Positions 817 through 27,628 of a stretch of 27,628 nucleotides of DNA are shown here, piece after piece. The notes under the pieces were generated by a model that made no database searches, was not told the DNA's origin, and saw nothing but the letters and a program-made list of their open reading frames with translations. Source of the DNA: Saccoglossus kowalevskii (Eukaryota; Hemichordata; Enteropneusta; Harrimaniidae); contig NW_003119640.1 in the NCBI RefSeq assembly GCF_000003605.2, positions 1 to 27,628 of the forward strand. Reading direction: 5' to 3'. Numbering within the stretch: the stretch's first letter is position 1; each line of letters begins with the position of its first letter. Position numbers and translations under genes: made by a program.

Positions 817-877
817 AAGTCAGGCTCAGTCGGGCCTGGTTAGTTCTTGCATGGGAGACTGCCTGAGAAAACCAGCT
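817..877 (+). pseudogene. 5S rRNA-derived segment 1 (ICR region)
   Basis: Gap-free match to 5S positions 49-109, with box A region AAGTCAGGC, intermediate element GGGCCTGG and box C CATGGGAGACTGCCTG. 5S positions 1-48 are not recognisable upstream, so no normal 5S rRNA can be made. T-run of 9 at 884-892. Confidence 0.88.
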
Positions 878-1773
878 AGGGAATTTTTTTTTGGTTTCAT
901 CACATACATATCAAACACATGAGACAATGTTCGTGGATCTTTTTTTCACTGTGATGTAAATTATTTTTAGTAGAAAAACATGGAAATTCAGGCATGTTTT
1001 CAAGTTCATGAACATTTTTCCAATTTCTCTGTTATTTTTGGAGATCAAGTTGGTGATGATGTCGGCACATAGTGGGGTTTGACCTGTTAACGTAGCGTGA
1101 AAAGTCGTACAAAGTGAACGCAAAGTTGTGCAAAGTGATTGGAAAGTTTGTAGATATATTTGTATGCTTGACCTAAATTGTTGGCATATAGAAACCCGCA
1201 GTTGTAAAGTCAAATAAATGAATAAAAGCGAGATGAAAACAGCCTATATAAGCAGAGTATCACATGAGCTGACTGACCGTAAAAATGATAGAAAACAGCA
1301 TGCAAAGTTGGTAAAAGCGTGCGAAACTTTGGCGGAGTTACATGTATATTTAACCTAAGTCATTGGAATGCCAACCCCGCAGTTAAATTTCGAAAACATT
1401 AAGTAAAAGTCAAGAAAATGCCAGATATATAAGCAGATTATGGCAACTGCAAACCGAAAATCGAAGACAAACTGCTTGCAAAGTTTTGAATAACGATTGC
1501 AAAGTTTGTAGATTCGTTTGGGAATGTTACATATGATATTATATTGACGGGTTCCATAGTCAAAAGTTCGAAAACGTAAAACAATATTTCGTAAATTGCC
1601 GTTAAAGTAGCGTACTATTATTCGCAGCATGTAGAGGTCATAGGTCAATTCAAGAAGTTACTCGTACAAACGCTATCAGGTTTAAAACAGTGTCAAACAT
1701 GAAATAGTCGCCAACTCGAGTGTATTTCAAATTGCGTAACCAGTAGTTTTGGTAGGTGAAGAGACAAAGTATA
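817..1773 (+). repeat. Unit 1 (957 bp, CC class)
   Basis: The 5S-like head carries GGGCCTGG and is preceded, at the end of unit 0, by the linked AAGCAGTAGTGTGGGTAGG variant. The block after the T-run has the GTGATGTAAATT form. S1 reads TGACTGACCG and AGCGTGCGAAAC. Confidence 0.95.
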
Positions 1774-1834
1774 AAGTCAAGCTCTATCGGGCATGGTTAG
1801 TTCTTGCATGGGAGACTGCCTGAGAAAACCAGCT
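1774..1834 (+). pseudogene. 5S rRNA-derived segment 2
   Basis: Box A region AAGTCAAGC fits the 5S AAGTTAAGC/AAGCTAAGC form with one or two changes. Intermediate element GGGCATGG. T-run of 9 at 1841-1849. Confidence 0.88.
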
Positions 1835-2730
1835 AGGGAATTTTTTTTTGGTTTCATCACATACATATCAAACATATGAGACAACGTTCGTGCATCTTTT
1901 TTCACTGTAATGTCAATTATTATTAGTAGAAAAACATGGAAATTTAGGCATGTTTTCAAGTTCATGAACATTTTTCCAATTTCTCTATTATTTTTGGAGA
2001 TCAAGTTGGTGATGATGTCGGCACATAGTGGGGTTTGACCTGTTAACGAACCGTGAAAAGTCGTACAAAGTGAACGCAAAGTTGTGCAAAGTGATTGGAA
2101 AGTTTGTAGATATATTTGTATGCTTGACCTAACTTGTTGGCTTATAGAAACCCGCAGTTGTAAAGTCAAATAAATGAATAAAAGCGAGATGAAAACAGCC
2201 TATATAAGCAGAGTATCACATGAGCTGACTGGCGGTAAAAATGATAAAAAAACAGCATGCAAAGTTGGTAAAAGTGTTCGAAACGTTGGCGGAGTTACAT
2301 GTATATTTAACGTAAGTCATTGGAATGCCTATCCCGCAGTTAAATTTTGAAAACATTAAGTAATTGTCAGGAAAATGCCAGATATATAAGCAGATTATCG
2401 CAACTGCAAACCGCAAATCAAAGTCAAACTGGTTGCAAAGTTATGAAAAAAGATTGCAAAGTTTGTAGATTCGTTTGGGAATGTTACATATGATATTATA
2501 TTGACGGGTTCCATAGTCAAAAGTTAGAAAACGTAAAACAATATTTGGTAATTGGCGGTTAAAGTAGCAAATTATTATTGGCAGCATGTGGAGTTCATAG
2601 GTCAATTCAGGAAGTTACTCGTACAAACGCTATCAGGTTTAAAACAGTGTCAAACATGAAATAGTCGCCAACTCGAGTATATTTCAAATTGCGTAACCAG
2701 TAGTGTTGGTAGGTGACGAGACAAAGTTTA
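1774..2730 (+). repeat. Unit 2 (957 bp, CA class, with C-to-G changes)
   Basis: The S3 region (about 2540-2595) has several G where every neighbour has C: TTTGGTAATTGGCGG and ATTGGCAGC. Further C-to-G changes lie near 2233 (CTGGCGG) and 2311 (AACGTAAG). The second S2 stretch, AACTGGTTGCAAAGTTATG, is also unusual. The head reads CTCTATCGGG. Confidence 0.95.
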
Positions 2731-2791
2731 AAGTCCAACTCAATCGGGCATGGGTAGTTCTTGCATGGGAGACTGCCTGAGAAAACCAGCT
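2731..2791 (+). pseudogene. 5S rRNA-derived segment 3
   Basis: Box A region AAGTCCAAC is weaker; intermediate element GGGCATGG followed by GTAGTTC. Box C intact as in segment 1. T-run 2797-2805. Confidence 0.86.
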
Positions 2792-2796
2792 AGGGA

Positions 2797-2805
2797 TTTT
2801 TTTTT
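2797..2805 (+). terminator. Putative Pol III T-run terminator (reference unit)
   Basis: Nine T residues begin 6 nt after the end of 5S homology, close to where a true 5S gene has its terminator. A run of four or more T on the non-template strand is the standard Pol III stop signal. A second T-run lies about 45-50 bp further on, before CACTGTAATG, and could act as a backup. Transcription itself is inferred, not shown. Confidence 0.5.
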
Positions 2806-2886
2806 GTTTCATCACATACATATCAAACATATGAGACAACGTTCGTGCATCTTTTTTTCACTGTAATGTCAATTATTTTTAGTAGA

Positions 2887-2912
2887 AAAACATGGAAATT
2901 TAGGCATGTTTT
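2887..2912 (+). other. Inverted repeat (hairpin), reference unit
   Basis: AAAACATG at 2887-2894 and CATGTTTT at 2905-2912 form a perfect 8-bp stem around the 10-nt loop GAAATTTAGG. It is kept in most units. Known losses are the altered arms in unit 0 and unit 7, and the 33-bp deletion in unit 27, which removes most of the right arm. Confidence 0.6.
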
Positions 2913-2915
2913 CAA

Positions 2916-2925
2916 GTTCATGAAC
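2916..2925. other. 10-bp perfect palindrome GTTCATGAAC (reference unit)
   Basis: The sequence equals its own reverse complement and sits between the hairpin and the Sm-like motif. It could be a dimeric protein site or simply part of a larger foldback (GAAATT 2895-2900 with AATTTC 2934-2939, ATGTT 2906-2910 with AACAT 2923-2927). It is broken in unit 0 (GTTCCTGAAC), unit 24 (GTTCATTAAC) and unit 25 (GTTCATAAAC), and absent from unit 27. Confidence 0.45.
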
Positions 2926-2945
2926 ATTTTTCCAATTTCTCTGTT

Positions 2946-2954
2946 ATTTTTGGA
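2946..2954 (+). other. Sm-binding-site-like motif ATTTTTGGA (reference unit)
   Basis: The motif fits the AU(4-6)GR consensus at which Sm proteins bind spliceosomal and spliced-leader RNAs. It follows a foldback-prone stretch and is followed by a short ATCA/TGAT hairpin (2956-2959 with 2966-2969). All units I read keep a fitting form; units 16 and 22 have four T instead of five. No snRNA or spliced-leader family is recognisable around it, so this is a motif match only and may be chance in AT-rich DNA. Confidence 0.25.
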
Positions 2955-3012
2955 GATCAAGTTGGTGATGATGTCGGCACATAGTGGGGTTTGACCTGTT
3001 AACGTACCGTGA

Positions 3013-3059
3013 AAAGTCGTACAAAGTGAACGCAAAGTTGTGCAAAGTGATTGGAAAGT
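3013..3059 (+). repeat. AAAGT ladder at helical spacing (reference unit)
   Basis: AAAGT begins at 3013, 3023, 3034, 3044 and 3055, with steps of 10, 11, 10 and 11 bp and a mean of exactly 10.5. The same ladder recurs at the matching place in the other units, in weaker form in unit 22 and with changed flanks in unit 16. It looks like an old short tandem repeat nested in sub-repeat S0. Confidence 0.75.
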
Positions 3060-3105
3060 TTGTAGATATATTTGTATGCTTGACCTAACTTGTTGGCATA
3101 TAGAA
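3032..3105 (+). repeat. Sub-repeat S0, right part (reference unit)
   Basis: GCAAAGTT at 3032 and AAAGTTTGTAGAT at 3055 match S2 at 3390 and 3413, offset by 358 bp, or twice 179. The match is strong in register: GCAAAGTT, then GATTG, then AAAGTTTGTAGAT. The left limit of S0 is unclear. Confidence 0.7.
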
Positions 3106-3285
3106 ACCCGCAGTTGTAAAGTCAAATAAATGAATAAAAGCGAGATGAAAACAGCCTATATAAGCAGAGTATCACATGAGCTGACTGGCCGTAAAAATGA
3201 TAGAAAACAGCATGCAAAGTTGGTAAAAGTGTTCGAAACGTTGGCGGAGTTACATGTATATTTAAACTAAGTCATTGGAATGCCA
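3106..3285 (+). repeat. Sub-repeat S1 (reference unit)
   Basis: Landmarks are ACCCGCAGTT at 3106, TATATAAGCAGA at 3157 and GCAAAGTT at 3214. S2 has the same landmarks in the same order, and the distance from CGCAGTT to TATATAAG is identical in both. AATAAA occurs twice between 3120 and 3140 (CAAATAAATGAATAAAAG). Confidence 0.8.
3157..3164 (+). promoter_or_regulatory. TATA-box-like TATATAAG in S1 (reference unit)
   Basis: This is a perfect TATAWAAG match within CCTATATAAGCAGAG. It is kept in most units; unit 8 reads TATATAAC and unit 28 reads ATATTTAAG. No convincing initiator or downstream gene is visible, so function is unproven and the match may reflect AT-rich repeat sequence. Confidence 0.25.
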
Positions 3286-3286
3286 A

Positions 3287-3464
3287 CCCCGCAGTTAAAT
3301 TTCGAAAACATTAAGTAATTGTCTGGAAAATGCCAGATATATAAGCAGATTATCGCAACTGCAAACCGCAAATCGAAGACAAACTGCTTGCAAAGTTTTG
3401 AAAAACGATTGCAAAGTTTGTAGATTCGTTTGGGAATGTTACATATGATATTATATTGACGGGT
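3287..3464 (+). repeat. Sub-repeat S2 (reference unit)
   Basis: CCCCGCAGTT at 3287, TATATAAGCAGAT at 3338 and GCAAAGTT at 3390 lie 176-181 bp after the matching landmarks of S1. The tail (GCAAAGTTTTG, GATTGC, AAAGTTTGTAGATTCG) matches S0 better than S1. Confidence 0.8.
3338..3345 (+). promoter_or_regulatory. TATA-box-like TATATAAG in S2 (reference unit)
   Basis: This is the second copy of the S1 motif, 181 bp downstream. Variants: TATATGAG in units 10, 23 and 27; TATATTAG in unit 21; deleted in unit 19. As with S1, no gene depends visibly on it. Confidence 0.25.
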
Positions 3465-3640
3465 TCCATAGTCAAAAGTTAGAAAACGTAAAACAATATT
3501 TCGTAAATTGCCGTTAAAGTAGCGAACTATTATTCGCAGCATGTAGAGGTCATAGGTCAATTCAAGAAGTTACTCGTACAAACGCTATCAGGTTTAAAAC
3601 AGTGTCAAACATGAAATAGTCGCCAACTCGAGTATATTTC
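3465..3640 (+). repeat. Sub-repeat S3, most diverged (reference unit)
   Basis: Weaker but in-register similarity to S2: TTAGAAAAC at 3479 against TTCGAAAAC at 3301 (178 bp), AAATTGCC against AAATGCC, and GAAGTT at 3566 against CAAAGTT near 3390 (176 bp). The TATA position reads AAAGTAGCG here, so the TATA-like box is lost. Confidence 0.5.
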
Positions 3641-3685
3641 AAATTGCGTAACCAGTAGTGTTGGTAGGTGAAGAGACAAAGTTTA

Positions 3686-3746
3686 AAGTCCAACTCAATC
3701 GGGCATGGGTAGTTCTTGCATGGGAGACTGCCTGAGAAAACCAGCT
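3686..3746 (+). pseudogene. 5S rRNA-derived segment 4
   Basis: Identical to segment 3, including the AAGTCCAAC and GGGTAG variants. T-run of 9 at 3752-3760. Confidence 0.86.
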
Positions 3747-4638
3747 AGGGATTTTTTTTTGTTTCATCACATACATATCAAACATATGAGACAACGTTCG
3801 TGCATCTTTTTTTCACTGTAATGTCAATTATTTTTAGTAGAAAAACATGGAAATTTAGGCATGTTTTCAAGTTCATGAACATTTTTCCAATTTCTCTGTT
3901 ATTTTTGGAGATCAAGTTGGTGATGATGTCGGCACATAGTGGGGTTTGACCTGTTAACGTACCGTGAAAAGTCGTACAAAGTGAACGCAAAGTTGTTGCA
4001 AAGTGATTGGAAAGTTTGTAGATATATTTTATGCTGACTAACTTGTTGGTATATAGAAACACGCAGTTATAAAGTCAAAGAAATGAATAAAAGCGAGATG
4101 AAAACAGCCTATATAAGCAGAGTATCACATGAGCTGACTGGCCGTAAAAATGATAGAAAACAGCATGCAAAGTTGGTAAAAGTGTTCGAAACGTTGGCGC
4201 AGTTACATGTATATTTAACCTAAGTCATTGGAATGCCAACCCCGCAGTTAAATTTCGAAAACATTAAGTAAAAGTCAGGAAAATGCCAGATATATAAGCA
4301 GATTATGGCAACTGCAAATCGAAAATCGAAGATAAACAGCTTGCAAAGTTTTGAAAAACGATTGCAAAGTCTGTAGATTCTTTTGGGTATGTTACATATG
4401 ATATTATTATGACGGGTTCCATAGTCAAAAGTTCGAGAACGTAAAACAATATTTCGTAAATTGCCGTTAAAGTAGCGTACTATTATTCACAGCATGTAGA
4501 GGTCATAGGTCAATTAAAGAAGTTACTCGTACAAACGCTATCAGGTTTAAAACAGTGTCAAACATGAAATAGTCGCCAATTCGAGAATATTTCAAATTGC
4601 GTAACCAGTAGTGTTGGTAGGTGAAGAGACAAAGTTTA
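3686..4638 (+). repeat. Unit 4 (953 bp), mosaic
   Basis: The first ~310 bases appear identical to unit 3. From about 3994 there is a cluster of single-base indels (GTTGTTGC, then ATTTTATGCTGACTAAC), after which the sequence follows the variant set of unit 6: AACACGCAGTTATAAAG, GGCGCAGTT, AAGTCTGTAG, TTTGGGTATG. Confidence 0.95.
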
Positions 4639-4699
4639 AAGTCAAGCTCAATCGGGCATGGTTAGTTCTTGCATGGGAGACTGCCTGAGAAAACCAGCT
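4639..4699 (+). pseudogene. 5S rRNA-derived segment 5
   Basis: Majority GGGCATGG form. T-run reduced to four (4707-4710), then ATTT. Confidence 0.88.
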
Positions 4700-5596
4700 A
4701 GGGAAATTTTATTTGGTTTCATCACATACATATCAAACATATGAGACAACGTTCGTGCATTTTTTTTTTCACAGTAATGACAATTAGTTTTAGTAGAAAA
4801 ACATGGAAATTTAGGCATGTTTTCAAGTTCATGAACATTTTTCCAATTTCTCTATTATTTTTGGAGATCAAGTTGGTGATGATGTCGGCACATAGTGGGG
4901 TTTGACCTGTTAACGTACCTTGAAAAGTCGTACAAAGTGAACGCAAAGTTGTGCAAAGTGATTGGAAAGTTTGTAGATATATTTGTATGCTTGACCTAAC
5001 TTGTTGGTATATAGAAACCCGCAGTTGTAAAGTCAAATAAATGAATAAAAGCGAGATGAAAACAGCCTATATAAGCAGAGTACCACATGAGCTGACTGGC
5101 CGTAAAAATGATAGAAAACAGCATGCAAAGTTGGCAAAAGTGTTCGAAACGTTGGCGGAGTTACATGTATATTTAACCTAAGTCATTGGAATGCCAACCC
5201 CGCAGTTAAATTTCGAAAACATTAAGTAAAAGTCAAGAAAATGCCAGATATATAAGCAGATTATGGCAACTGCAAATCGAAAATAGAAGACAAACAGCTT
5301 GCAAAGTTTTGAAAAACGATTGCAAAGTCTGTAGATTCTTTTGGGTATGTTACATATGATATTATTATGACGGGTTCCATAGTCAAAAGTTCGAGAACGT
5401 AAAACAATATTTCGTAAATTGCCGTTAAAGTAGCGTACTATTATTCACAGCATGTAGAGGTCATAGGTCAATTAAAGAAGTTACTCGTACAAACGCTATC
5501 AGGTTTAAAACAGTGTCAAACATGAAATAGTCGCCAATTCGAGAATATTTCAAATTGCGTAACCAGTAGTGTTGGTAGGTGAAGAGACAAAGTTTA
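4639..5596 (+). repeat. Unit 5 (958 bp), block-R type
   Basis: The T-run is short (TTTTATTT). It carries CACAGTAATGACAATTAG, GTACCTTGAAAAG, AAGTCTGTAG, TTTGGGTATG and ATTCACAGCATG, all shared with unit 13. GTACCTTG recurs exactly 7656 bp downstream, which is 8 units. Confidence 0.95.
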
Positions 5597-5657
5597 AAGT
5601 CAAGCTCAATCGGGCATGGTTAGTTCTTGCATGGGAGACTGCCTGAGAAAACCAGCT
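5597..5657 (+). pseudogene. 5S rRNA-derived segment 6
   Basis: Majority form, followed by the unusual ATTGAAA. Four-T run at 5665-5668. Confidence 0.88.
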
Positions 5658-6553
5658 ATTGAAATTTTATTTGGTTTCATCACATACATATCAAACATAT
5701 GAGACAACGTTAGTGCATTTTTTTTTCACAGTAATGACAATTAGTTTTAGTAGAAAAACATGGAAATTTAGGCATGTTTTCAAGTTCATGAACATTTTTC
5801 CAATTTCTCTATTATTTTTGGAGATCAAGTTGGTGATGATGTCGGCACATAGTGGGGTTTGACCTGTTAACGTACCGTGAAAAGTCGTACAAAGTGAACG
5901 CAAAGTTGTGCAAAGTGATTGGAAAGTTTGTAGATATATTTTTATGCTTGACCTAACTTGTTGGTATATAGAAACACGCAGTTATAAAGTCAAAGAAATG
6001 AATAAAAGCGAGATGAAAACAGCCTATATAAGCAGAGTATCACATGAGCTGACTGGCCGTAAAAATGATAGAAAACAGCATGCAAAGTTGGTAAAAGTGT
6101 TCGAAACGTTGGCGCAGTTACATGTATATTTAACCTAAGTCATTGGAATGCCAACCCCGCAGTTAAATTTCGAAAACATTAAGTAAAAGTCAGGAAAATG
6201 CCAGATATATAAGCAGATTATGGCAACTGCAAATCGAAAATCGAAGATAAACAGCTTGCAAAGTTTTGAAAAACGATTGCAAAGTCTGTAGATTCTTTTG
6301 GGTATGTTACATATGATATTATTATGACGGGTTCCATAGTCAAAAGTTCGAGAACGTAAAACAATATTTCGTAAATTGCCGTTAAAGTAGCGTACTATTA
6401 TTCACAGCATGTAGAAGTCATAGGTCAATTAAAGAAGTTACTCGTACAAACGCTATCAGGTTTAAAACAGTGTCAAACATGAAATAGTCGCCAATTCGAG
6501 AATATTTCAAATTGCGTAACCAGTAGTGTTGGTAGGTGAAGAGACAAAGTTTG
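5597..6553 (+). repeat. Unit 6 (957 bp), block-R type
   Basis: The post-5S sequence reads CCAGCTATTGAAATTTTA, unlike any other copy. The tail is almost identical to that of unit 4 (AACACGCAGTTATAAAG, GGCGCAGTT). A rare GTAGAAGTC occurs at about 6410. Confidence 0.95.
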
Positions 6554-6614
6554 AAGTCAAGCTCAGTCGGGCCTGGTTAGTTCTTGCATGGGAGACTGCC
6601 TGAAAAAACCAGCT
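6554..6614 (+). pseudogene. 5S rRNA-derived segment 7
   Basis: GGGCCTGG form, matching 5S here. One extra change after box C (CCTGAAAAAACC). T-run of 8 at 6622-6629. Confidence 0.88.
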
Positions 6615-7509
6615 AGGGAAATTTTTTTTGGTTTCATCACATACATATCAAACATACGACAAAATGTTCGTGCATCTTTTTTTCACTGTGATGTCAATTA
6701 TTTTTACTATAAAAACATGGAAATTTAGGCATGTATTCAAGTTCATGAACATTTTTCCAATTTCTCTATTATTTTTGGAGATCAAGTTGGTGATGATGTC
6801 GGCACATAGTGGGGTTTGACCTGTTAACGTACCGTGAAAAGTCGTACAAAGTGAACGCAAAGTTGTGCAAAGTGATTGGAAAGTTTGTAGATATATTTGT
6901 ATGCTTGACCTATTTTGTTGGTATATAGAAACCCGCAGATGTAAAGTCAAATAAATGAATAACAGCGAGATGAAAACAGCCTATATAAGCAGAGTATCAC
7001 ATGAGCTGACTGACCGTAAAAATGATAGAAAACAGCATGCAAAGTTGGTAAAAGCGTGCGAAACGTTGGCGGAGTTACATGTATATTTAACCTAAGTCAT
7101 TGGAATGCCAACCCCGCAGTTAAATTTCGAAAACATTAAGTAAAAGTCAAGAAAATGCCAGATATATAAGCAGATTATGGCAACTGCAAACCGAAAATCG
7201 AAGACAAACTGCTTGCAAAGTTTTGAAAAACGATTCAAAGTTTGTAGATTCGTTTGGGAATGTTACATATGATATTATATTGACGGGTTCCATAGTCAAA
7301 AGTTCGAAAACGTAAAACAATATTTCGTAAATTGCCGTTAAAGTAGCGTACTATTATTCGCAGCATGTAGAGGTCATAGGTCAATTCAAGAAGTTACTCG
7401 TACAAACGCTATCAGGTTTAAAACAGTGTCAAACATGAAATAGTCGCCAACTCGAGTATATTTCAAATTACGTAAGCAGTAGTTTTGGTAGGTGAAGAGA
7501 CAAAGTTTA
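6554..7509 (+). repeat. Unit 7 (956 bp), recombinant class
   Basis: The head has GGGCCTGG but the sequence before it is the AACCAGTAGTGTTGG form, so the two class markers are unlinked here. It also has CATACGACAAAATG, TACTATAAAAACATGG, GCATGTATTCAAG and a lost GC in S2 (GATTCAAAG near 7232). Confidence 0.95.
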
Positions 7510-7570
7510 AAGTCAAGCTCAGTCGGGCATGGTTAGTTCTTGCATGGGAGACTGCTAGAGAAAACCAGCT
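7510..7570 (+). pseudogene. 5S rRNA-derived segment 8
   Basis: Mixed form (CAGTCGGGCATGG). Box C ends GCTAGAG, two changes in a conserved stretch. T-run of 9 at 7577-7585. Confidence 0.87.
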
Positions 7571-8466
7571 AGGGAATTTTTTTTTGGTTTCATCACATAC
7601 ATATCAAACATATGAGACAACGTTCGTGCATCTTTTTTTCACTGTGATGTAAATTATTTTTAGTAGAAAAACATGGAAATTTAGGCATGTTTTCAAGTTC
7701 ATGAACATTTTTCCAATTTCTCTATTATTTTTGGAGATCAAGTTGGTGATGACGTCGGCACATAGTGGGGTTTGACCTGTTAACGTAGCGTGAAAAGTCG
7801 TCCAAAGTGAACGCAAAGTTGTGCAAAGTGATTGGAAAGTTTGTAGATAAATTTGTATGCTTGACCTAACTTGTTGGCATATAGAAACCCGCAGTTGTAA
7901 AGTCAAATAAATGAATAAAAGCGAGATGGAAACAGCCTATATAACCAGAGTATCACAAGAGCTGACTGACCGTAAAAATGATAGAAAACAGCATGCAAAG
8001 TTGGTAAAAGCGTGCGAAACGTTGGCGGAGTTTCAGGTATAATTAACCTAAGTCATTGGAATGCCAACCCCGCAGTTAAATTTCGAAAACATTAAGTAAA
8101 AGTCAAGAAAATGCCAGATATATAAGCAGATTATGGCAACTGCAAACCGCAAATCGAAGTCAAACTGCTTGCAAAGTTTTGAAAAACGATTGCAAAGTTT
8201 GTAGATTCGTTTGGAAATGTTACATATGATATTATATTGACGGGTTACATAGACAGAAGATCGAGAACGTAAAACAATATTTCGTAAATTGCCGTTGAAG
8301 TAGTGTACTATTATTCGCAGCATGTAGAGGTCATAGGTCAATTCAAGAAGTTACTCGTACAAACGCTATCAGGATTAAAACAGTGTCAAACATGAAATAG
8401 TCGCCACATCGAGCATATTTCAAATTGAGTAAACAGTAGTGTTGGTAGGTGAAGAGACAAAGTTTA
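7510..8466 (+). repeat. Unit 8 (957 bp)
   Basis: Box C end reads GCTAGAG instead of GCCTGAG. The ladder has TCCAAAG, the S1 TATA is TATATAACC, and S1 ends TTTCAGGTATAATT. S3 has ACATAGACAGAAGATCG, and the tail markers (AGGATTAAAAC, CACATCGAGC, GAGTAAACAG) recur only before the 5S copy at 27533. Confidence 0.95.
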
Positions 8467-8527
8467 AAGTCAAGCTCAATCGGGCATGGTTAGTTCTTGC
8501 ATGGGAGACTGCCTGAGAAAACCAGCT
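8467..8527 (+). pseudogene. 5S rRNA-derived segment 9
   Basis: Majority form; the tail is shortened to CCAGCTTGG. T-run of 8 at 8533-8540. Confidence 0.88.
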
Positions 8528-9423
8528 TGGAATTTTTTTTGGTTTCATCATATACATATCAAACATATGAGACAATGTTCGTGGATCTTTTTTTCAGTGT
8601 GATGTAAATTATTTTTAGTAGAAAAACATGGAAATTCCGGCATGTTTTCAAGTTCATGAACATTTTTCAAATTTCGTCTATTATTTTTGGAGATCAAGTT
8701 GGTGATGATGTCGGCACATAGCTGGGGTTTGACCTGTTAACGTACCGTGAAAAGTCATACAAAGTGAACGCAAAGTTGTGCAAAGTGATTGGATAGTTTG
8801 TAGATATATTTGTACGCTTGACCTAACTTGTTGGAATATAGAAACCCGCAGTTGTAAAGTCAAATAAATGAATAAAAGCGAGATGAAAACAGCCTATATA
8901 AGCAGAGTATCACATGAGCTGACTGGCCGTATAAATGATAGAAAACAGCATGCAAAGTTGTTAAAAGTGTTCGAAACTTTGGCGGAGTTACATGTATATT
9001 TAACCTAAGTCATTGGAATGCCAACCCCGCAGTTAAATTTCGAAAACATTAAGTAAAAGTCAAGAAAATGCCAGATATATAAGCAGATTATGGCAACTGC
9101 AAACCGAAAATCGAAGACAAACTGCTTGCAAAGTTTTGAAAAACGATTGCAAAGTTTGTAGATTCGTTTGGGAATGTTACATATGATATTATATTGACGG
9201 GTTCCATAGTCAAAAGTTCGAAAACGTAAAACAATACTTTGTAAATTGCCGTTAAATTAGCGTACTATTATTCGCAGCATGTAGAGGTCATAGGTCAATT
9301 CAAGAAGTTACTCGTACAAACGCTATCAGGTTTAAAACAGTGTCAAACATGAAATAGTCGCCGGATCGAGTATATTTCAAATTGCGTAACCAGTAGTGTT
9401 GGTAGGTGAAGAGACAAAGTTTA
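8467..9423 (+). repeat. Unit 9 (957 bp)
   Basis: It has small insertions (TTTCGTCTATT near 8675, ATAGCTGGGG near 8719). S1 (GTTGTTAAAAGTG, AAACTTTGG) and S3 (ATACTTTGTAAATTG, AAATTAGCG) carry variants shared with unit 19, ten units away. Confidence 0.95.
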
Positions 9424-9484
9424 AAGTCAAGCTCAATCGGGCATGGTTAGTTCTTGCATGGGAGACTGCCTGAGAAAACCAGCT
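9424..9484 (+). pseudogene. 5S rRNA-derived segment 10
   Basis: Majority form. T-run of 5 at 9492-9496. Confidence 0.88.
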
Positions 9485-10380
9485 AGGGAAATTTTTATTC
9501 GTTTCATCACATTCATATCAACATATGAGACAACGTTCGTGCATCTTTATTTTCACTGTAATGTCAATTATTTTTAGTAGAAAAACATGGAAATTTAAGA
9601 ATGTTTTCAAGTTCATGAACTTTTTTCCAATTTCTCTATTATTTTTGGAGATCAAGTTGGTGATGATGTCGGCACATAGTGGGGTTTGACCTGTTAACGT
9701 ACCGTGAAAATTCGTACAAAGTGAACGCAAAGTTGTGCAAAGTGATTGGAAAGTTTGTAAATATATTTTTATGCTTGACCTACCTTGTTGGTATATAGAA
9801 ACCCGCATTTGTAAAGTCGAATAAATGAATAAAAGCGAGATGAAAACAGCCTATATAAGCAGAGTATCACATGAGCTGACTGGCCGTATAAATGATAGAA
9901 AACAGCATGAAAGTTGGTAAAAGTGTTCGAAACGTTGGCAGAGTTACATGTATATTTAACCTAAGTCACTGGAATGCCAACCCCGCAGTTAAATTTCGAA
10001 AACATTAAGTAAAAATCAAGAAAATGCCAGATATATGAGCAGATTATGGCAACTGCAAACCGAAAATCGAAGACAAACTGCTTGCAAAGTTTTGAAAAAC
10101 GATTGCAAAGTTTGTAGATTCGTTTGGGAATGTTACATATGATATTATATTGACGGGTTCCATAGTCAAAAGTTCGAAAACGTAAAAAAAATATTTCGTA
10201 AATTGTCGTTAAAGTAGCGTACGATTATTCGCAGCATGAAGAGGTCATAGGTCAATTCAAGAAGTTACTCGTACAAACGCTATCTGGTTTAAAACAGTGT
10301 CAAACATGAAATAGTCGCCAACTCGAGTATATTTCAAATTGCGTAACCAATAGTGTTGGTAGGTGAAGAGACAAAGTTTG
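9424..10380 (+). repeat. Unit 10 (957 bp)
   Basis: It has AAGAATGTTTTC, CATGAACTTTTTTCC and GAAAATTCGTAC, shared with unit 19. It also has AAGTCGAATAAATG, AGCATGAAAGT and GATATATGAGCAG, shared with units 23 and 27. One A is lost in ATATCAACATATG near 9520. Confidence 0.95.
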
Positions 10381-10441
10381 AAGTCAAGCTCAATCGGGCA
10401 TGGTTAGTTCTTGCATGGGAGACTGCCTGAGAAAACCAGCT
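10381..10441 (+). pseudogene. 5S rRNA-derived segment 11
   Basis: Majority form, preceded by TTTG rather than TTTA. T-run of 8 at 10449-10456. Confidence 0.88.
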
Positions 10442-17074: not shown

Positions 17075-17135
17075 AAGTCAAGCTCAATCGGGCATGGTTA
17101 GTTCTTGCATGGGAGACTGCCTGAGAAAACCAGCT
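17075..17135 (+). pseudogene. 5S rRNA-derived segment 18
   Basis: Majority form. T-run of 9 at 17143-17151. Confidence 0.88.
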
Positions 17136-18030: not shown

Positions 18031-18091
18031 AAGTCAAGCTCAATCGGGCATGGTTAGTTCTTGCATGGGAGAATGCCTGAGAAAACCAGCT
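18031..18091 (+). pseudogene. 5S rRNA-derived segment 19
   Basis: Majority form with one box C change (GGGAGAATGCC) and tail CTACGG. T-run of 8 at 18099-18106. Confidence 0.87.
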
Positions 18092-18945: not shown

Positions 18946-19006
18946 AAGTCAAGCTCAATCGGGCATGGTTAGTTCTTGCATGGGAGACTGCCTGAGAAAA
19001 CCAGCT
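18946..19006 (+). pseudogene. 5S rRNA-derived segment 20
   Basis: Majority form. T-run of 5 at 19014-19018, then GTTTG. Confidence 0.88.
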
Positions 19007-19903
19007 AGGGAAATTTTTGTTTGTTTCATCACATACATATCAAACATATGAGTCAACGTTCGTGCATCTTTTTTTCACTGTAATGTCAATTAATTTTAGT
19101 AGAAAAACATGGAAATTTAGGCATGTTTTCAAGTTCATGAACATTTTTCCAATTTCTCTATTATTTTTGGAGATCAAGTTGGTGATGATGTCGGCACATA
19201 GTAGGGTTTGACCTGTTAACGTACCGTGAAAAGTCGTACAAAGTGAACGCAAAGTTGTGCAAAGTGATTGGAAAGTTTGTAGATATATTTGTATGCTTGA
19301 CCTAACTTGTTGGCATATAGAAACCCGCAGTTGTAAAGTCAAATAAATGAATAAAAGCGAGATGAAAACAGCCTATATAAGCAGAGTATCACATGAGCTG
19401 ACTGGCCGTAAAAATGATAGAAAACAGCATGCAAAGTTGTTAAAAGTGTTCGAAACTTTGGCGGAGTTACATGTATATTTAACCTAAGTCATTGGAATGC
19501 CAACCCCGCAGTTAAATCTCGAAAACATTAAGTAAAAGTCACGAAAATGCCAGATATATAAGCAGATTATGGCAACTGCAAACCGTAAATCGAAGACAAA
19601 CTGCTTGCAAAGTTTTGAAAAACGATTGCAAAGTTTGTAGATTCGTTTGGGAATGTTACATATGATATTATATTGACGGGTTACATAGTCAAAAGTTCAA
19701 AAACTTAAAAAAAATATTTCGTAAATTGCCGTTAAAGTAGCGTACTATTATTCGCTGCATGTAGAGGTCATAGGTCAATTCAAGAAGTTACTCGTACAAA
19801 CGCTATCAGGTTTAAAACAGTGTCAAACATGAAATAGTCGCCAACTCAAGTATATTTCAAATTGCGTAAGCAGTAGTGTGGGTAGGTGAAGAGACAAAGT
19901 TTA
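18946..19903 (+). repeat. Unit 20 (958 bp)
   Basis: Short T-run (TTTTTGTTTG). Private or rare changes: ATGAGTCAACG, CACATAGTAGGG, AAATCTCGAAAAC, GTCACGAAAATG, AAACTTAAAAAAAATA, TTCGCTGCATG. Confidence 0.95.
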
Positions 19904-19964
19904 AAGTCAAGCTCAGTCGGGCCTGGTTAGTTCTTGCATGGGAGACTGCCTGAGAAAACCAGAT
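19904..19964 (+). pseudogene. 5S rRNA-derived segment 21
   Basis: GGGCCTGG form with tail CCAGATAGGG. T-run of 9 at 19971-19979. Confidence 0.88.
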
Positions 19965-20849
19965 AGGGAATTTTTTTTTGGTTTTGTCACATACATATTA
20001 AACATATGAGACAATGTTCGTGCATCTTTTTTTCACTGTAATGTCAATTATTATTAGTAGAAAAACATGGAAATTTAGGCATGTTTTCAAGTTCATGAAC
20101 ATTTTTCCAATTTCTCTGTTATTTTTGGAGATCAAGTTGGTGATGATGTCGGCACATATTGGGGTTTGACCTGTTAACGTACCGTGAAAAGTCGTACAAA
20201 GTGAACGCAAAGTTGTGCAACGTGATTGCAAAGTTTGTAGATATATTTGTATGCTTGACCTAACTTGTTGGCATATAGAAACCCGCAGTTGTAAAGTCAA
20301 ATAAATGAATAAAAGCGAGATGAAAACAGCCTATATAAGCAGAGTATCACATGAGCTGACTGGCCGTATAAATGATAGAAAACAGCATGCAAATTTAGTA
20401 AAAGTGTTCGAAACATTGGCGGAGTTACATGTATATTTAACCTAAGTCATTGGAATGCCAACCCCGCAGTTAAATTTCGAAAACCTTAAGTAATTGTCTG
20501 GAAAATGCCAGATATATTAGCAGATTATGGCAACTGCAAACCGCAAATTGAAGACAAACTGCTTGCAAAGTTTTGAAAAACGATTGCAAAGTTTGTAGAT
20601 TCGTTTGGGAATGTTATATATGACGGGTTCCATAGTCAAAAGTTCGAAAACGTAAAACAATATTTTGTAAATTGCCGTTAAATTAGCGTACTATTATTCG
20701 CAGCATGTAGAGGTCATAGGTCAATTCAAGAAGTTACTCGTACAAACGCTATCAGGTTTAAAACAGTGTCAAACATGAAATAGTCGCCAGATCGAGTATA
20801 TTTCAAATTGTGTAACCAGTAGTGTTCGTAGGTGAAAAGACAAAGTTTA
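19904..20849 (+). repeat. Unit 21 (946 bp, CC class), 11-bp deletion
   Basis: Eleven bases are missing near 20618 (GTTATATATGACGGG, where others have a longer ATATGATATTATATTGAC stretch). The S2 TATA reads TATATTAG. Box C is followed by CCAGATAGGG. Others: GGTTTTGTCAC, CACATATTGGGG, CAACGTGATTGC. Confidence 0.95.
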
Positions 20850-20910
20850 AAGTCAAGCTCAATCGGGCATGGTTAGTTCTTGCATGGGAGACAGCCTGAG
20901 AAAACCAGCT
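20850..20910 (+). pseudogene. 5S rRNA-derived segment 22
   Basis: Majority form; box C reads GGGAGACAGCC. T-run of 10 at 20917-20926. Confidence 0.88.
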
Positions 20911-21826
20911 AGGGAATTTTTTTTTTGGTTTCATCACATACATATCAAACATATGAGACAACTTTCGTGCATCTTTTTTTCACTGTAATGTCAATTATTT
21001 TTAGTAGAAAACATGGAAATTAGGCATGTTTTCAAGTTCATGAACATTTTTCAATTTCTCTATATTTTGGAGATCAAGTTGGTGATGATGTCGGCACATA
21101 GTGGGGTTTGACATGTTAACGTACCGTGAAAAGTCATACAAAGTGAACGCATAGTTGTGCAAACAGATTGGAAAGTGTGTAGATATAAAAGTATGCTTGA
21201 CATAACTTGTTGATATATAGAAACCTGCAGTTGTAAAGTCAAATAAATGAATAAAAGCGAGATGAAAACAGCCTATATAAGCAGAGTATCACATGAGCTG
21301 ACTGGCCGTATAAATGATAGAAAACAGCATGCAAAGTTGGTAAAGGTGTTCGAAACGTTGGCGGAGTTACATGTATATTTAACTTAAGTCATTGGAATGC
21401 CAACCCAGCAGTTAAATTTCGAAAACATTAAGTAAAAGTCAAGAAAAACATTAAGTAAAAGTCAAGAAAATGCCAGATATATAAGCAGATTATGGCATCT
21501 TCAATCCGCAAATGGAAGACAAACTGCTTGCAAAGTTTTGAAAAACGATTGCAAAGTTTGTAGATTTTTTTGGAATGTTACATATGATATTATATTGACG
21601 GGTTCCATAGTCAAAAGTTCGAAAACGTAAAAAAAAATATTTCGTAAATTGTCGTTAAAGTAGCGTACTATTATTCGCAGCATGTAGAGGTCATAGGTCA
21701 ATTCAAGAAGTTACTCGTACAAACGCTATCGGGTTTAAAACAGTGTCAAACATGAAATAGTCGCCAACTAGAGTATATTTCAAATTGCGTAACCATTAGT
21801 GTTGGTAGGTGAAGAGACAAAGTTTG
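20850..21826 (+). repeat. Unit 22 (977 bp), 23-bp duplication
   Basis: ACATTAAGTAAAAGTCAAG occurs at 21425 and again at 21448, a 23-bp tandem duplication. The same unit has several one-base losses between 21007 and 21070 and a weakened ladder (CATAGTTGTGC, AAACAGATTGG, GATATAAAAGTATG). Confidence 0.95.
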
Positions 21827-21887
21827 AAGTCATGCTCAATCGGGCATGGTTAGTTCTTGCATGGGAGACTGCCTGAGAAAACCAGCT
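21827..21887 (+). pseudogene. 5S rRNA-derived segment 23
   Basis: Box A region AAGTCATGC. The T-run is interrupted (TTTCTTTT, 21895-21902) but keeps four consecutive T. Confidence 0.87.
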
Positions 21888-22785
21888 AGGGAAATTTCTT
21901 TTGGTTTCATCACATACATATCAAACATAAGAGACAACGTTCGTGCATCTTTTTTTCACTGTAATGTCAATTATTTTTTGGTACAAAAACATGGAAATTT
22001 AGGCATGTTTTCAAGTTCATGAACATTTTTCCAATTTCTCTATTATTTTTGGAGATCAAGTTGGTGATGATGTCGGCACATAGTGGGGTTTGACCTGATA
22101 ACGTACCGTGAAAAGTCGTACAAAGTGAACGCAAAGTTATGCAGAGTGATTTGAAAGTTTGTAGATATATTTGTATGCTTGACCTAACTTGTTGGTATAT
22201 AGAAACCCGCAGTTGTAAAGTCGAATAAATGAATAAATGCGAGATGAAAACAGCCTATATAAGCAGAGTATCACATGAGCTGACTGGCCGTATCAATGTT
22301 AGAAAACAGCATGAAAGTCGGTAAAAGTGTTAGAAACGTTGGCGGAGTTACATGTATATTTAACATAAGTCATTGGAATGCCAACCCCGCAGTTAAATTT
22401 AGAAAACATTAAGTAAAAATCAAGAAAATGCCAGATATATGAGCAGATTATGGCAACTGCAAACCGAAAATTGAAGACAAACTGCTTGCAAAGTTTTGAA
22501 AAAATATTGCAAAGTTTGTACATTCGTTTGGGAATGTTACATATGATATTATATTGACGGGTTCCATAGTCAAAAGTTAGAAAACGTAAAAAAAAATATT
22601 TCGTAAATTGTCGTTAAAGTAGCGTACTATTATTCGCAGCATGTAGAGGTCATAGGTCAATTCAAGAAGTTACTCGTACAAACGCTATCATGTTTAAAAC
22701 AGTGTCAAACATGAAATAGTCGCCAATTCAAGTATATTTCAAGTTGCGTAAGCAGTAGTGTGGGTAGGTGGAGAGACAAAGTTTA
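21827..22785 (+). repeat. Unit 23 (959 bp)
   Basis: The head begins AAGTCATGCTC. The hairpin front is altered (TTTTTTGGTACAAAAAC). It shares AAGTCGAATAAATG, AGCATGAAAGT and TATATGAGC with unit 10, thirteen units away. Others: GTATCAATGTTAG, AAAATATTGC. Confidence 0.95.
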
Positions 22786-22846
22786 AAGTCAAGCTCAGTC
22801 GGGCCTGTTTAGTTCTTACATGGAAGACTGCCTGAGAAAACCAGCT
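22786..22846 (+). pseudogene. 5S rRNA-derived segment 24, degraded
   Basis: GGGCCTGTTTAG and CATGGAAGAC change both the intermediate element and box C. T-run of 6 at 22856-22861. Confidence 0.85.
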
Positions 22847-23742
22847 AGGAAATTATTTTTTGGTTTCATCACATACATATCAAACATATGAGACAATGTT
22901 CGTGCATCTTTTTTTCACTGTGATGTAAATTATTTTTAGTAGAAAAACATGGAAATTTAGGAATGTTTTCAAGTTCATTAACATTTTTCCAATTTCTCTA
23001 TTATTTTTGGAGATCAAGTTGGTGATGATGTCGGAACATAGTGGGGTTTGACCTGTTAACGTACCGTGAAAAGTCGTACAAAGTGAACGCAAATTTGTGC
23101 AAAGTGATTGGAAAGTTTGTAGATATATTTGTATGCTTGACCTAACTTGTTGGCATATAGAAATCCGCAGTTGTAAAGTCAAATAAATGAATAAAAGCGA
23201 GATGAAAACAGCCTATATAAGCAGAGTATCACATGAGCTGACTGGCCGTAAAAATGATAGAAAACAGCATGCAAAGTTGGTAAAAGCGTGCGAAACGTTG
23301 GCGGAGTTTCATGTATATTTAATCTAAGTCATTGGAATGCCAACCCCGCAGTTAAATTTCGAAAACATTAAGTAAAAGTCAAGAAAATGCCAGATATATA
23401 AGCAGATTATGGCAACTGCAAACCGTAAATCGAAGACAAACTGCTTGCAAAGTTTCGAAAAACGATTGCAAAGTTTGGAGATTCGTTTGGGAATGTTACA
23501 TATGATATTATATTGACGGGTTACATAATCAAAAGTTCGAAAACTTAAAAAAATATTTCGTAAATTGCCGTTAAAATAGCGTACTATTATTCGCAGCATG
23601 TAGAGGTCATAGGTCAATTCAAGAAGTTACTCGTACAAACGATATCAGGTTTAAAACAGTGTCAAACATGAAATAGTCGCCAACTCGAGTATATTTCAAA
23701 TTGCGTAAGCAGTAGTGCGGGTAGATGAAGAAACAAAGTTTA
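22786..23742 (+). repeat. Unit 24 (957 bp, CC class)
   Basis: The head is damaged in IE and box C (GGGCCTGTTTAG, CTTACATGGAAGAC). The palindrome is broken (GTTCATTAAC). Others: TCGGAACATAG, GCAAATTTGTGC, AGTTTCGAAAAACG. Confidence 0.95.
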
Positions 23743-23803
23743 AAGTCAAGCTCAGTCGGGCCTGGTTAGTTCTTGCATGGGAGACTGCCTGAGAAAACCA
23801 GCT
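23743..23803 (+). pseudogene. 5S rRNA-derived segment 25
   Basis: GGGCCTGG form. T-run of 10 at 23809-23818. Confidence 0.88.
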
Positions 23804-24698
23804 AGGGATTTTTTTTTTGGTTTCATCACATACATATTAAACATATGAGACAATGTTCGTGCATCTTTTTTCACTGTAATGTCAATTATTTTTAGTAGAA
23901 AAACATGGAAATTTAGGCATGTTTTCAAGTTCATAAACATTTTTTCAATTTCTCTGTTATTTTTGGAGATCAAGTTGGTGATGATGTCGGCACATAGTGG
24001 GGTTTGACCTGTTAACGTACCGTGAAAAGTCGTACAAAGTGAACGCAAAGTTGTGCAAAGTGATTTGAAAGTTTTTAGGTATATTTGTATGCTTGACCTA
24101 ACTTGTTGGCATATAGAAACCCGCAGTTGTAAAGTCAAATAAATGAATAAAAGCGAGATGAAAACAGCCTATATAGGCAGAGTATCACATGAGCTGACTG
24201 GCCGTATAAAAGATAGAAAACAGCATGCAAAGTTGGTAAAAGTGTTCGAAACGCTGGCGGAGTTACATGTATATTTAACCTAAGTCATTGGAATGTCAAC
24301 CCCGGAGGTAAATTACGAAAACATTAAGTAAAAGTCAAGAAAATGCCAGATATATAAGCAGATTATGACAACTGCAAACCTAAAATCGAAGACAAACTGC
24401 TTGCAAAGTTTTGAAAAACGATTGCAAAGTTTGTAGATTCGTTTGGGAATGTTACATATGATATTATATTGACGGGTTCCATAGTCAAAAGATCGAAAAC
24501 GTAAAAAAATATTTCGTAAATTGCCGTTAAAGTAGCGTACTATTATTCGCAGCATGTAGAGGTAATAGGTCAATTCAAGAAGTTACTCGTACAAACGCTA
24601 TCAGGTTTAATACAGTTTCAAACTTGAAATAGTCGCCAACTAGAGAATATTTCAAATTGCGTAACCAGTAGTGTTGGTAGGTGAAGAGACAAAGTTTG
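23743..24698 (+). repeat. Unit 25 (956 bp, CC class)
   Basis: It shares GATTTGAAAGTTTTTAGG, TATATAGGCAG and TATAAAAGATAG with unit 26, indicating a recent tandem copy. S2 begins CCCCGGAGGTAAATTACG. The palindrome is lost (GTTCATAAAC). Confidence 0.95.
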
Positions 24699-24759
24699 AA
24701 GTCAAGCTCAATCGGGCATGGTTATTTCTTGCATGGGAGACTGCCTGAGAAAACCAGCT
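24699..24759 (+). pseudogene. 5S rRNA-derived segment 26
   Basis: Majority form with GGTTATTTC. T-run of 9 at 24766-24774. Confidence 0.88.
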
Positions 24760-25650
24760 AGAGAATTTTTTTTTGGTTTCATCACATACATATCAAACAT
24801 ATGAGACAACGTTCGTGCATCTTTTTTCACTGTAATGTCAATTATTTTTAGTAGAAAAACATGAAAATTTAGGCATGTTTTCAAGTTCATGAACATTTTT
24901 CCAATTTCTCTATTATTTTTGGAGATCAAGTTGGTGATGATGTCGGCACATAGTGGGGTTTGACCTGTTAACGTACCGTGAAAAGTCGTACAAAGTGAAC
25001 GCAAAGTTGTGCAAAGTGATTTGAAAGTTTTTAGGTATATTTGTATGCTTGACCTAACTTGTTGGCATATAGAAACCCGCAGTTGTAAAGTCAAATAAAT
25101 GAATAAAAGCGAGATGAAAACAGCCTATATAGGCAGAGTATCACATGAGCTGACTGGCCGTATAAAAGATAGAAAACAGCATGCAAAGTTGGTAAAAGTG
25201 TTCGAAACGTTGGCGGAGTTACATGTATATTTAACCTAAGTCATTGGAATGCCAACCCCGCAGTTAAATTTCGAAAACATTAAGTAATTGTCTGTAAAAT
25301 GCCAGATATATAAGCAGATTATGGCAACTGCAAACCGCAAATCGAAGACAAACTGCTTGCAAAATTTTGAAAAACGATTGCAAAGTTTGTAGATTCGTTT
25401 GGGAATGTTACATATGATATTATATTGACGGGTTCCATAGTCAAAAGTTCGAAAACGTAAACAAATATTTCGTAAATTGCCGTTAAAGTAGCGTACTATT
25501 GTTCGCAGCATGTAGAGGTCATAGTCAATTCAGAAGTTACTCGTACAACGCTATCAGTTTAAAACAGTTTCAAACATGAAATAGTCGCCAGATCGAGTAT
25601 ATTTTAAATTGCGTAACCAGTAGTGTTCGTAGGTGAAGAGACAAAGTTTA
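24699..25650 (+). repeat. Unit 26 (952 bp), with indel cluster
   Basis: S0 and S1 match unit 25. Within 25521-25560 four or more single bases are missing (CATAGTCAATTCAGAAG, GTACAACGC, ATCAGTTT). The hairpin front reads ACATGAAAATT. Confidence 0.95.
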
Positions 25651-25711
25651 AAGTCAAGCTCAGTCGGGTCTGGTTAGTTCTTGCATGGGAGACTGCCTGA
25701 GAAACCCAGCT
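25651..25711 (+). pseudogene. 5S rRNA-derived segment 27
   Basis: GGGTCTGG form; tail GAAACCCAGCT. T-run of 9 at 25718-25726. Confidence 0.88.
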
Positions 25712-26573
25712 AGGGAATTTTTTTTTGGTTTCATCACATACATATCAAACATAAGAGACAATGTTCGTGCATCTTTTTTTCACTGTAATGTCAATTATTT
25801 TTAGTAGAAAAACATGGAAATTTAGGCATGTATTATTTTTGGAGATCAAGTTGGTAATGATGTCGGCACATAGTGGGGTTTGACCTGTTAACGTACCGTG
25901 AAAAGTCGTACAAAGTGAACGCAAAGTTGTGCAAAGTGATTGGAAAGTTTGTAGATATATTTTTATGCTTGACCTACCTTGTTGGTATATAGAAACCCGC
26001 AGTTGTAAAGTCGAATAAATGAATAAAAGCGAGATGAAAACAGCCTATATAAGCAGAGTATCACATGAGCTGACTGGCCGTATAAATGATAGAAAACAGC
26101 ATGAAAGTTGGTAAAAGTGTTCGAAACGTTGGCAGAGTTACATGTATATTTAACCTAAGTCATTGGAATGCCAACCCCGCAGTTAAATTTCGAAAACATT
26201 AAGTAAAAATCAAGAAAATGCCAGATATATGAGCAGATTATGACAACTGCAAACCGAAAATCGAAGACAAACTGCTTGCAAAGTTTTGAAAAACGATTGC
26301 AAAGTTTGTAGATTCGTTTGGGAATGTTACATATGATATTATATTGACGGGTTACATAGTCAAAAGTTAGAAAACGTAAACAAATATTTCGTAAATTGCC
26401 GTTAAAGTAGCGTACTATTATTCGCAGCATGTAGAGGTCATAGGTCAATTCAAGAAGTTACTCGTACAAACGCTATCAAGTTTAAAACAGTGTCAAACAT
26501 GAAATAGTCGTCAATTCAAGTATATTTGAAATTGCGTAAGCAGTAGTGTGGGTAGGTGAATAGACAAAGTTTA
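25651..26573 (+). repeat. Unit 27 (923 bp), 33-bp deletion
   Basis: At 25830/25831 (GGCATG|TATTATTTTTGG) 33 bp are missing, taking the palindrome and most of the right hairpin arm but leaving the Sm-like motif. The head reads GGGTCTGG. It shares AAGTCGAATAAATG, AGCATGAAAGT and TATATGAGC with units 10 and 23. Confidence 0.95.
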
Positions 26574-26634
26574 AAGTCAAGTTCAGTCGTGCCTGGTTAG
26601 TTCTTGGATGGGAGGCTGCCTGAGAAAACCAGCT
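26574..26634 (+). pseudogene. 5S rRNA-derived segment 28
   Basis: GTGCCTGG in the intermediate element. Box C start reads CTTGGATGGG, matching true 5S where all other copies have CTTGCATGGG or a derivative, but then GAGGCTGCC. T-run of 9 at 26641-26649. Confidence 0.87.
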
Positions 26635-27532
26635 CGGAAATTTTTTTTTGGTTTCATCACATACATATCAAACATATGACAAAATGTTCGTGCATCTTTT
26701 TTCACTGTGATGTAAATTATTTTTAGTAGAAAAACATGGAAATTTAGGCATGTTTTGTAGTTCATGAACATTTTTCAAATTTCTATATTATTTTTGGAGA
26801 TCAAGTTGGTGATGATGTCGGCACATAGTGGGGTTTGACCTGTTAACGTACAGTGAAAAGTCGTACAAAGTGAACGCAAAGTTGTGCAAAGTGATTGGAA
26901 AGTTTTTAGATATATTTGTATGCATGACCTAATTTGTTGGCATATAGAAACCCGCAGTTGTAAAGTCAAATGAATGAATAAAATGTAGATGAAAACAGCA
27001 TATTTAAGCAGAGTATCACATGAGCTGACTGACCGTAAAAATGATAGAAAACAGCATGAAGATTTGGTAAAAGCGTGCGAAACGTTGGCGGAGTTACATG
27101 TATATTTAACCTAAATAAACATTGGAATGCCAACCCCGCAGTTAAATTTCGAAAACATTAAGTAAAAGTCAAGAAAATGCCAGATATATAAGCAGATTAT
27201 GGCAACTGCAAACCGCAAATCGAAGACAAACTGCTTGCAAAGTTTTGAAAAACGATTGCAAAGTTTGTAGATTCGTTTGGAAATGTTACATATGATATTA
27301 TATTGACGGGTTACATAGTCAAAAGTTCGAGAACGTAAAACAATATTTCGTAAATTGCCGTTAAAGTAGTGTACTATTATTCGCAGCATGTAGAGGTCAT
27401 AGGTCAATTCAAGAAGTTACTCGTACAAACGCTATCAGGATTAAAACAGTGTCAAACATGAAATAGTCGCCACATCGAGCATATTTCAAATTGAGTAAAC
27501 AGTAGTGTTGGTAGGTGAAGAGACAAAGTTTA
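26574..27532 (+). repeat. Unit 28 (959 bp, CC class)
   Basis: It shares CATATGACAAAAT, CGTACAGTG and AGCATGAAGATTTGG with unit 15. The S1 TATA reads ATATTTAAG. S1 ends with an insertion (CCTAAATAAACATTGG). The tail (AGGATTAAAAC, CACATCGAGC, GAGTAAACAG) matches unit 8. Confidence 0.95.
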
Positions 27533-27593
27533 AAGTCAATCTCAATCGGGCATGGTTAGTTCTTGCATGGGAGACTGCCTGAGAAAACCAGCT
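27533..27593 (+). pseudogene. 5S rRNA-derived segment 29
   Basis: Majority form with AAGTCAATC in the box A region. T-run of 10 at 27599-27608. Confidence 0.87.
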
Positions 27594-27628
27594 AGGGATT
27601 TTTTTTTTGGTTTCATCACATACATATC
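27533..27628 (+). repeat. Unit 29, right-truncated by the window
   Basis: Only the 5S-like head, a 10-T run and the first bases of the following block (GGTTTCATCACATACATATC) are inside the window. Confidence 0.95.

Follow-up and report, generated by a model that had tools for sequence, protein, structure and literature searches.

Organization of the array

The DNA analysed here (the window) is an entire contig (C1248; 27,628 bases) of the 572 Mb assembly of the acorn worm Saccoglossus kowalevskii, which comprises 4830 contigs. Along its whole length (1..27628, plus strand) it consists of a tandem satellite array, in which each unit of about 957 bp carries a segment similar to the promoter-containing part of the 5S ribosomal RNA gene (5S). 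A partial first unit is followed by 28 more, and all 29 copies are arranged head-to-tail in a single orientation. The equivalent of 5S nucleotide (nt) 51 lies at 819 in the first copy and at 27535 in the last, and no copy of the 5S-like segment was found on the minus strand of the window. Spacing between neighbouring copies is 953-959 bp in 23 of 28 cases, the remaining five being 915, 923, 946, 952 and 977 bp. With the partial first unit left out, pairwise identity across the 28 units is 94.7% on average (range 91.3-99.0%). Long homogeneous tandem arrays are the mark of satellite DNA, and the 29 units in the window form such an array. They belong to one of two subfamilies described below, subfamily A.

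The 5S-like segment, corresponding to 5S nt 48-105, is located on the plus strand at 816..873 (copy 1), 1773..1830 (copy 2), 2730..2787 (copy 3), 3685..3742 (copy 4), 4638..4695 (copy 5), 5596..5653 (copy 6), 6553..6610 (copy 7), 7509..7566 (copy 8), 8466..8523 (copy 9), 9423..9480 (copy 10), 10380..10437 (copy 11), 11339..11396 (copy 12), 12296..12353 (copy 13), 13252..13309 (copy 14), 14208..14265 (copy 15), 15162..15219 (copy 16), 16117..16173 (copy 17, with a 1-nt deletion), 17074..17131 (copy 18), 18030..18087 (copy 19), 18945..19002 (copy 20), 19903..19960 (copy 21), 20849..20906 (copy 22), 21826..21883 (copy 23), 22785..22842 (copy 24), 23742..23799 (copy 25), 24698..24755 (copy 26), 25650..25707 (copy 27), 26573..26630 (copy 28) and 27532..27589 (copy 29).

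Unit 2 (895..1851, plus strand, 957 bp) may serve as an example of the unit. It contains an internal tandem duplication at 1120..1485 on the plus strand (approximate coordinates, projected from the consensus). The two duplicated blocks, each about 185-190 bp long and 70% identical to each other, lie at consensus positions 226-415 and 408-591 and recur at the corresponding place in other units. Since two tandem blocks are present within the consensus, duplication contributed to the growth of the 957-bp unit itself. Organization into higher-order repeats was considered and rejected, since mean identity is flat over unit offsets 1-14 (0.944-0.952).

Other features of the unit are as follows. All 33 mechanically called open reading frames of 80-130 amino acids are on the minus strand and recur with the unit, 31 of them starting with TTG or GTG. 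Those of about 97-130 amino acids (for example 911-1213 and 1355-1648) begin mostly with TTG. Four of the 33 were compared with Pfam and gave no match at E 0.001. A motif resembling the B box occurs once on the plus strand of the unit consensus. Two pattern scans of viral contigs and one of genome contigs returned no matches.

Extent of similarity to 5S

When the unit consensus is aligned to the host's own 5S gene without gaps, the two are identical at 47 of 58 positions in nt 48-105. The initial annotation of this DNA had described 29 copies of a 61-nt segment matching 5S nt 49-109 without gaps. Both the number of copies and the match hold (49/61 identical, gap-free, in the consensus); the individual copies align without gaps in 28 cases of 29, copy 17 (16120) being one base short within the segment. 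It had also proposed that the structural ends of 5S were lost, in agreement with our comparison: identity to host 5S is at chance-like level both in nt 1-47 (16/47) and in nt 106-119 (5/14). The unit thus contains no 5S region of 95-120 bp, complete or nearly so; similarity is strong at nt 48-105 only.

Two kinds of comparison suggested at the outset, with the host 5S and with 5S models, gave different outcomes. A blastn comparison of the consensus with seven pieces of the host 5S arrays gave best E-values from 3.6e-13 to 4.7e-12. A 57-nt piece of host 5S matches the consensus at 46 of 57 positions, and the best of 200 shuffles matches at 31. The Rfam 5S model, on the other hand, speaks against the observed homology, as none of the 29 copies reaches its gathering score of 38 bits. 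At lax thresholds, one copy of the 29 is listed (copy 12; 20.4 bits, E = 5.7), and the Rfam search of the window at both gathering and lax thresholds gave nothing useful beyond this one weak 5S alignment. As judged from these alignments, the segment is truly homologous to 5S, with homology confined to the promoter-containing part. That the units might be functional 5S genes was rejected, since the best copy scores 20.4 bits and the 47 scored host genes score 105-113.

All boxes of the type 1 RNA polymerase III (Pol III) promoter had been placed inside the segment by the initial annotation, from which we also took their limits. This placement is correct. Box A (nt 50-64), the intermediate element (IE; nt 67-72) and box C (nt 80-97) are found at native spacing and are identical to host 5S at 11/15, 5/6 and 16/18 positions of the unit consensus, respectively, so that 7 of 39 box positions are changed. 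In copy 1 the three equivalents lie at 818..832, 835..840 and 848..865, all on the plus strand, and are followed by a run of nine T at 884..892 (plus strand), resembling a Pol III terminator. In the consensus, the distance from the end of the segment to a run of nine T is about 10 nt, and a run of at least four T is present in each of the 29 copies of the window. The consensus T-run begins 4 nt earlier than the T-run position of the host gene.

Distribution in the genome, true 5S genes and a second satellite

Ten contigs were found to carry the satellite, which falls into two subfamilies. Subfamily A is found on C275, C859, C4065, C4116, C880 and C1248; subfamily B, which is 90-93% identical to the A consensus, is found on C1108, C3309, C3509 and C1579. 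At seven further loci (on C859, C275, C4065, C4116 and C1108), the unit covers 99.6-100% of the sequence. On C859 (93 kb), three 10-kb stretches from both ends and the middle are satellite throughout, and on C3309 (119 kb) the satellite matches listed span 8.3 to 102 kb. The assembly contains 319 exact matches, every one in forward orientation, to a 22-mer starting within box C. Since this 22-mer is exact in only 20 of the 29 copies of the window, the true copy number must be above 319.

The orientation of the arrays deserves a remark of its own. All matches of the 957-bp satellite that were listed are on the plus strand of their contigs, and whole counts of two 22-mers are 319/0 and 219/0. 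Repeats other than this satellite, by contrast, occur on either strand in the assembly (C3485 minus, C2212 plus, both of them 5S arrays). The plus-strand bias of the 957-bp satellite is unexplained and perhaps an effect of assembly.

Full-length host 5S genes are located in separate arrays, one on C3485 with a unit of about 1138 bp and others on C2212 and C3801 with a unit of about 1579 bp, the latter spacing being taken from match positions. With the Rfam 5S model, at least 47 host genes score above the cut-off (105-113 bits, best 112.9), a lower bound because scoring was confined to the top part of 18,217 first-look candidates. Outside its 5S segment, the satellite unit has best matches of 15-26 nt (E 0.005 or worse) to seven stretches of the three host 5S arrays.

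A pattern search for A at 5S nt 77 together with C at nt 94 gave 13 places. One of them is subfamily B (C1108); the other 12 belong to a second 5S-derived satellite. Its units of about 216 bp contain a full-length degenerate 5S-like region, and it is found on C2220, C4011, C4699, C627 and C981 (loci L058, L059 and L061-L070). In 11 loci, 125 matches of this satellite, some of them overlapping, are above the Rfam 5S threshold, and its copies could be mistaken for 5S genes. Present conservation of the 216-bp satellite is about equal in nt 1-47 (0.951) and nt 48-105 (0.941), as estimated from 99 of 111 copies, with the 12 pattern-selected ones set aside. The segment of subfamily B matches the consensus of the 216-bp family at 51 of 61 positions and the host gene at 50 of 61, values too close to pick a source.

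Conservation among units, upstream element and RNA folding

We wondered if the 5S-like segment is better conserved than its surroundings. In 68 units of subfamily A, identity to the majority base is 0.970 in the segment versus 0.969 over the full unit; equal or better conservation is seen in 52% of 58-nt intervals. Within the segment, identity is 0.964 in the promoter boxes and 0.981 at the remaining 5S positions, with 0.982 in box C. No excess conservation of box C was detected among these units, as 32% of 18-nt intervals are equal or better. Subfamily A mismatches host 5S at 7/39 box positions and at 4/19 of the remaining ones; for subfamily B the numbers are 6/39 and 4/19. Variants at 5S nt 61 and 68 are linked, G61 being combined with C68 in 13 of the 68 A units and A61 with A68 in 51.

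Further, host 5S genes were compared with the satellite upstream of the gene. In 45 host genes with flanks, both kinds of 5S array agree at 16 of the 20 positions from -36 to -17. The flanks of the two kinds (L039-L045) are otherwise diverged, and this 20-bp block is a candidate upstream promoter element. The satellite lacks it: up to 10 nt to either side of the expected site, at best 8 of the 16 invariant bases are found, against 7.9 for the best of 21 sites taken at random. This absence would carry weight only as far as the host needs the -36 to -17 element. In silk worm, Drosophila, fission yeast and Arabidopsis, upstream TATA-like elements are described as determinants of some tRNA genes (PMC11346459).

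None of three 125-nt transcripts predicted for the window folds better than its shuffles (z-scores +0.81, +1.10 and +0.93). The candidate class of a structured RNA was rejected on account of these positive z-scores.

The initial annotation had suggested that the promoter part was kept for recruitment of TFIIIA and Pol III. With conservation that is only average, divergence between subfamilies that is only mildly reduced, boxes that are not spared, an absent upstream element and an unremarkable fold, this suggestion finds no support. Constraint on the promoter part is not supported by any of the tests run on these sequences, and weak constraint would be possible; transcription of satellite units, or binding of TFIIIA to them, is likewise possible.

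Origin and possible use of the 5S fragment

We consider it probable that this satellite DNA of the acorn worm carries a captured 5S fragment as a passenger. The 957-bp monomer would have taken up, in a single event, a fragment of a 5S-type gene reaching from nt 48 to about nt 105 and perhaps as far as the terminator T-run. Since 10 of 11 majority differences from host 5S are common to subfamilies A and B, the capture appears to be older than their split. Afterwards the fragment would have been copied along with the unit via ordinary satellite turnover (unequal exchange and conversion), drifting at the pace of the remaining unit and presumably serving no function at present. C94, G107 and, in 13 of 68 A units, C68 differ from the host 5S state and correspond to that of human 5S. 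These states are consistent with an old capture, and parallel change could have produced them as well.

Several observations do not sit easily with a passenger. Two of them, the box spacing and the T-run, also speak for a reading in which the units are type 1 Pol III transcription units. In such units, TFIIIA would bind the boxes, transcription would begin some 48 nt ahead of the segment and end in the T-run, and the resulting RNAs of about 115-120 nt would be non-5S in their 5' half. In 28 of 29 copies the boxes stand at their native distances, and IE (5/6) and box C (16/18) are close to host 5S. The T-run noticed in the initial annotation is indeed general: of 87 copies scanned (14 sources, including all 29 copies of the window), 86 have a run of at least four T within 24 nt past the segment, close to where a 5S terminator would lie, and a run of at least seven T within 5 nt of the expected site is expected by chance at 2.3% of unit positions. 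Divergence between A and B (81 aligned rows of A and 15 of B, at least 11 B rows across the segment) is 0.064 in the segment versus 0.102 overall, yet 14% of intervals are as low or lower. Of 47 fixed differences between A and B, one lies in the segment, and 18% of intervals hold equally few. Finally, the 216-bp satellite likewise keeps the promoter half best: relative to the host gene, its consensus has 8 changes in nt 1-47 (one of them an insertion) and 2 changes in nt 48-119 (Fisher p = 0.014); this consensus was built on 54 copies chosen by a 5'-end motif, and 99 unselected copies give identical letters there. In classic deletion work on Xenopus, a 5S fragment starting near nt 50 could reportedly initiate transcription before foreign DNA. 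Against Pol III units stand the box positions, which are not spared (7/39 changed versus 4/19 elsewhere), the missing -36 to -17 element (8/16, 7.9 expected) and the z-scores of the three predicted transcripts (+0.8 to +1.1). In addition, the commonest variant (51 of 68 A units) has A at both nt 61 and nt 68, where the host gene has G. We regard Pol III units as quite unlikely.

Arrays of this kind might also bind TFIIIA or TFIIIC with little transcription, acting as a TFIIIC-type chromosomal site or as a sink for TFIIIA. Box C is the best kept of the boxes (16/18), and the assembly has 319 exact copies of the 22-mer beginning in it. Against such binding stands the lack of excess conservation in box C (32% of 18-nt intervals equal or better). 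We consider it highly improbable.

A different possibility concerns origin only and is compatible with a passenger. The unit may descend from a mobile element with a 5S-derived promoter, either an Ajax/Cassandra-like terminal-repeat retrotransposon in miniature (TRIM) or a SINE3-like element, later amplified in tandem. Long terminal repeats (LTRs) of Ajax, a TRIM family of nemerteans, are described as holding, of 5S, just the part from box A through IE to box C, the sequence upstream being divergent (PMC10886601), and Cassandra is reported in long tandem arrays (PMC7215508). Ajax elements have LTRs and a primer site for tRNA; the 957-bp unit contains neither paired LTRs nor other near-identical direct repeats, only the 70% internal duplication. 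SINE3 elements share a 5S-derived promoter region with the satellite unit (PMC10886601). Their 5S part heads a longer transcript, and in the satellite the T-run about 10 nt downstream would terminate a SINE3-type transcript ahead of any element body; an organization with body and tail was not found in the unit. Moreover, all loci measured for unit content proved to be array. Among the best or first matches listed, all places are in arrays; dispersed copies, with target-site duplications, may exist elsewhere. Origin from a mobile element is in our opinion rather unlikely.

Relation to known 5S-derived satellites

The 957-bp satellite with its 5S fragment can be compared with two described systems. 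The 5SHindIII-DNA satellite of the fish Hoplias malabaricus is likewise tandem, contains a partial 5S-like segment and can be told apart from the species' own true 5S repeats (PMC2713275). Its 360-bp unit is described as consisting of 95 bp of 5S-like and 265 bp of spacer-like sequence (PMC2713275), in contrast to 58 nt of 957 in Saccoglossus. Similarity to host 5S spacers of the 5SHindIII type is not found here either, the best matches being the 15-26 nt given above. PcP190 of hyloid frogs is likewise considered to be derived from 5S rDNA (PMC11675491). It differs from the 957-bp satellite in having units of about 190 bp with a 120-bp 5S-like region, and both regions of the unit are reported to be transcribed in two species (PMC11675491). 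The 216-bp satellite of the Saccoglossus genome is a closer parallel to PcP190.

Mitochondrial contig

An observation apart from the satellites was made on the mitochondrial contig of the same assembly (C4830). Its COX1 reads TGA as Trp and is free of AGA and AGG, and ARAGORN detected a tRNA whose anticodon, TTT, it assigns to Lys or Asn. In COX1, ATA stands at sites that are presumably Ile in other animals, and the strand of COX1 is opposite to that of frames which we take to be nad1 and cox2. For the mitochondrion of S. kowalevskii, AUA coding for Ile, AAA coding for Lys, a tRNA-Lys with UUU, lack of AGG and an inversion of COX1 are described (PMC3121625).

Implications

Satellites derived from 5S are already known from frogs and fish. 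The one described here is a hemichordate satellite with only the promoter-containing part of 5S in a long unrelated unit; among the matches listed in one open-access library, no hemichordate 5S-derived satellite is named. Both Saccoglossus satellites keep the internal-promoter half of 5S, since the 957-bp unit has nothing else of the gene and the 216-bp unit differs from it mostly in nt 1-47, so recruitment of TFIIIA/TFIIIC is conceivable. There is a small chance, considering these two sequences together, that TFIIIA/TFIIIC are recruited by hundreds of such fragments, in arrays reaching about 100 kb in length, which would yield short non-5S RNAs or mark chromatin. The 957-bp satellite, the 216-bp satellite and the true 5S genes form a natural series, in which one may ask whether Pol III promoters persist in satellites by chance or because they are of use.

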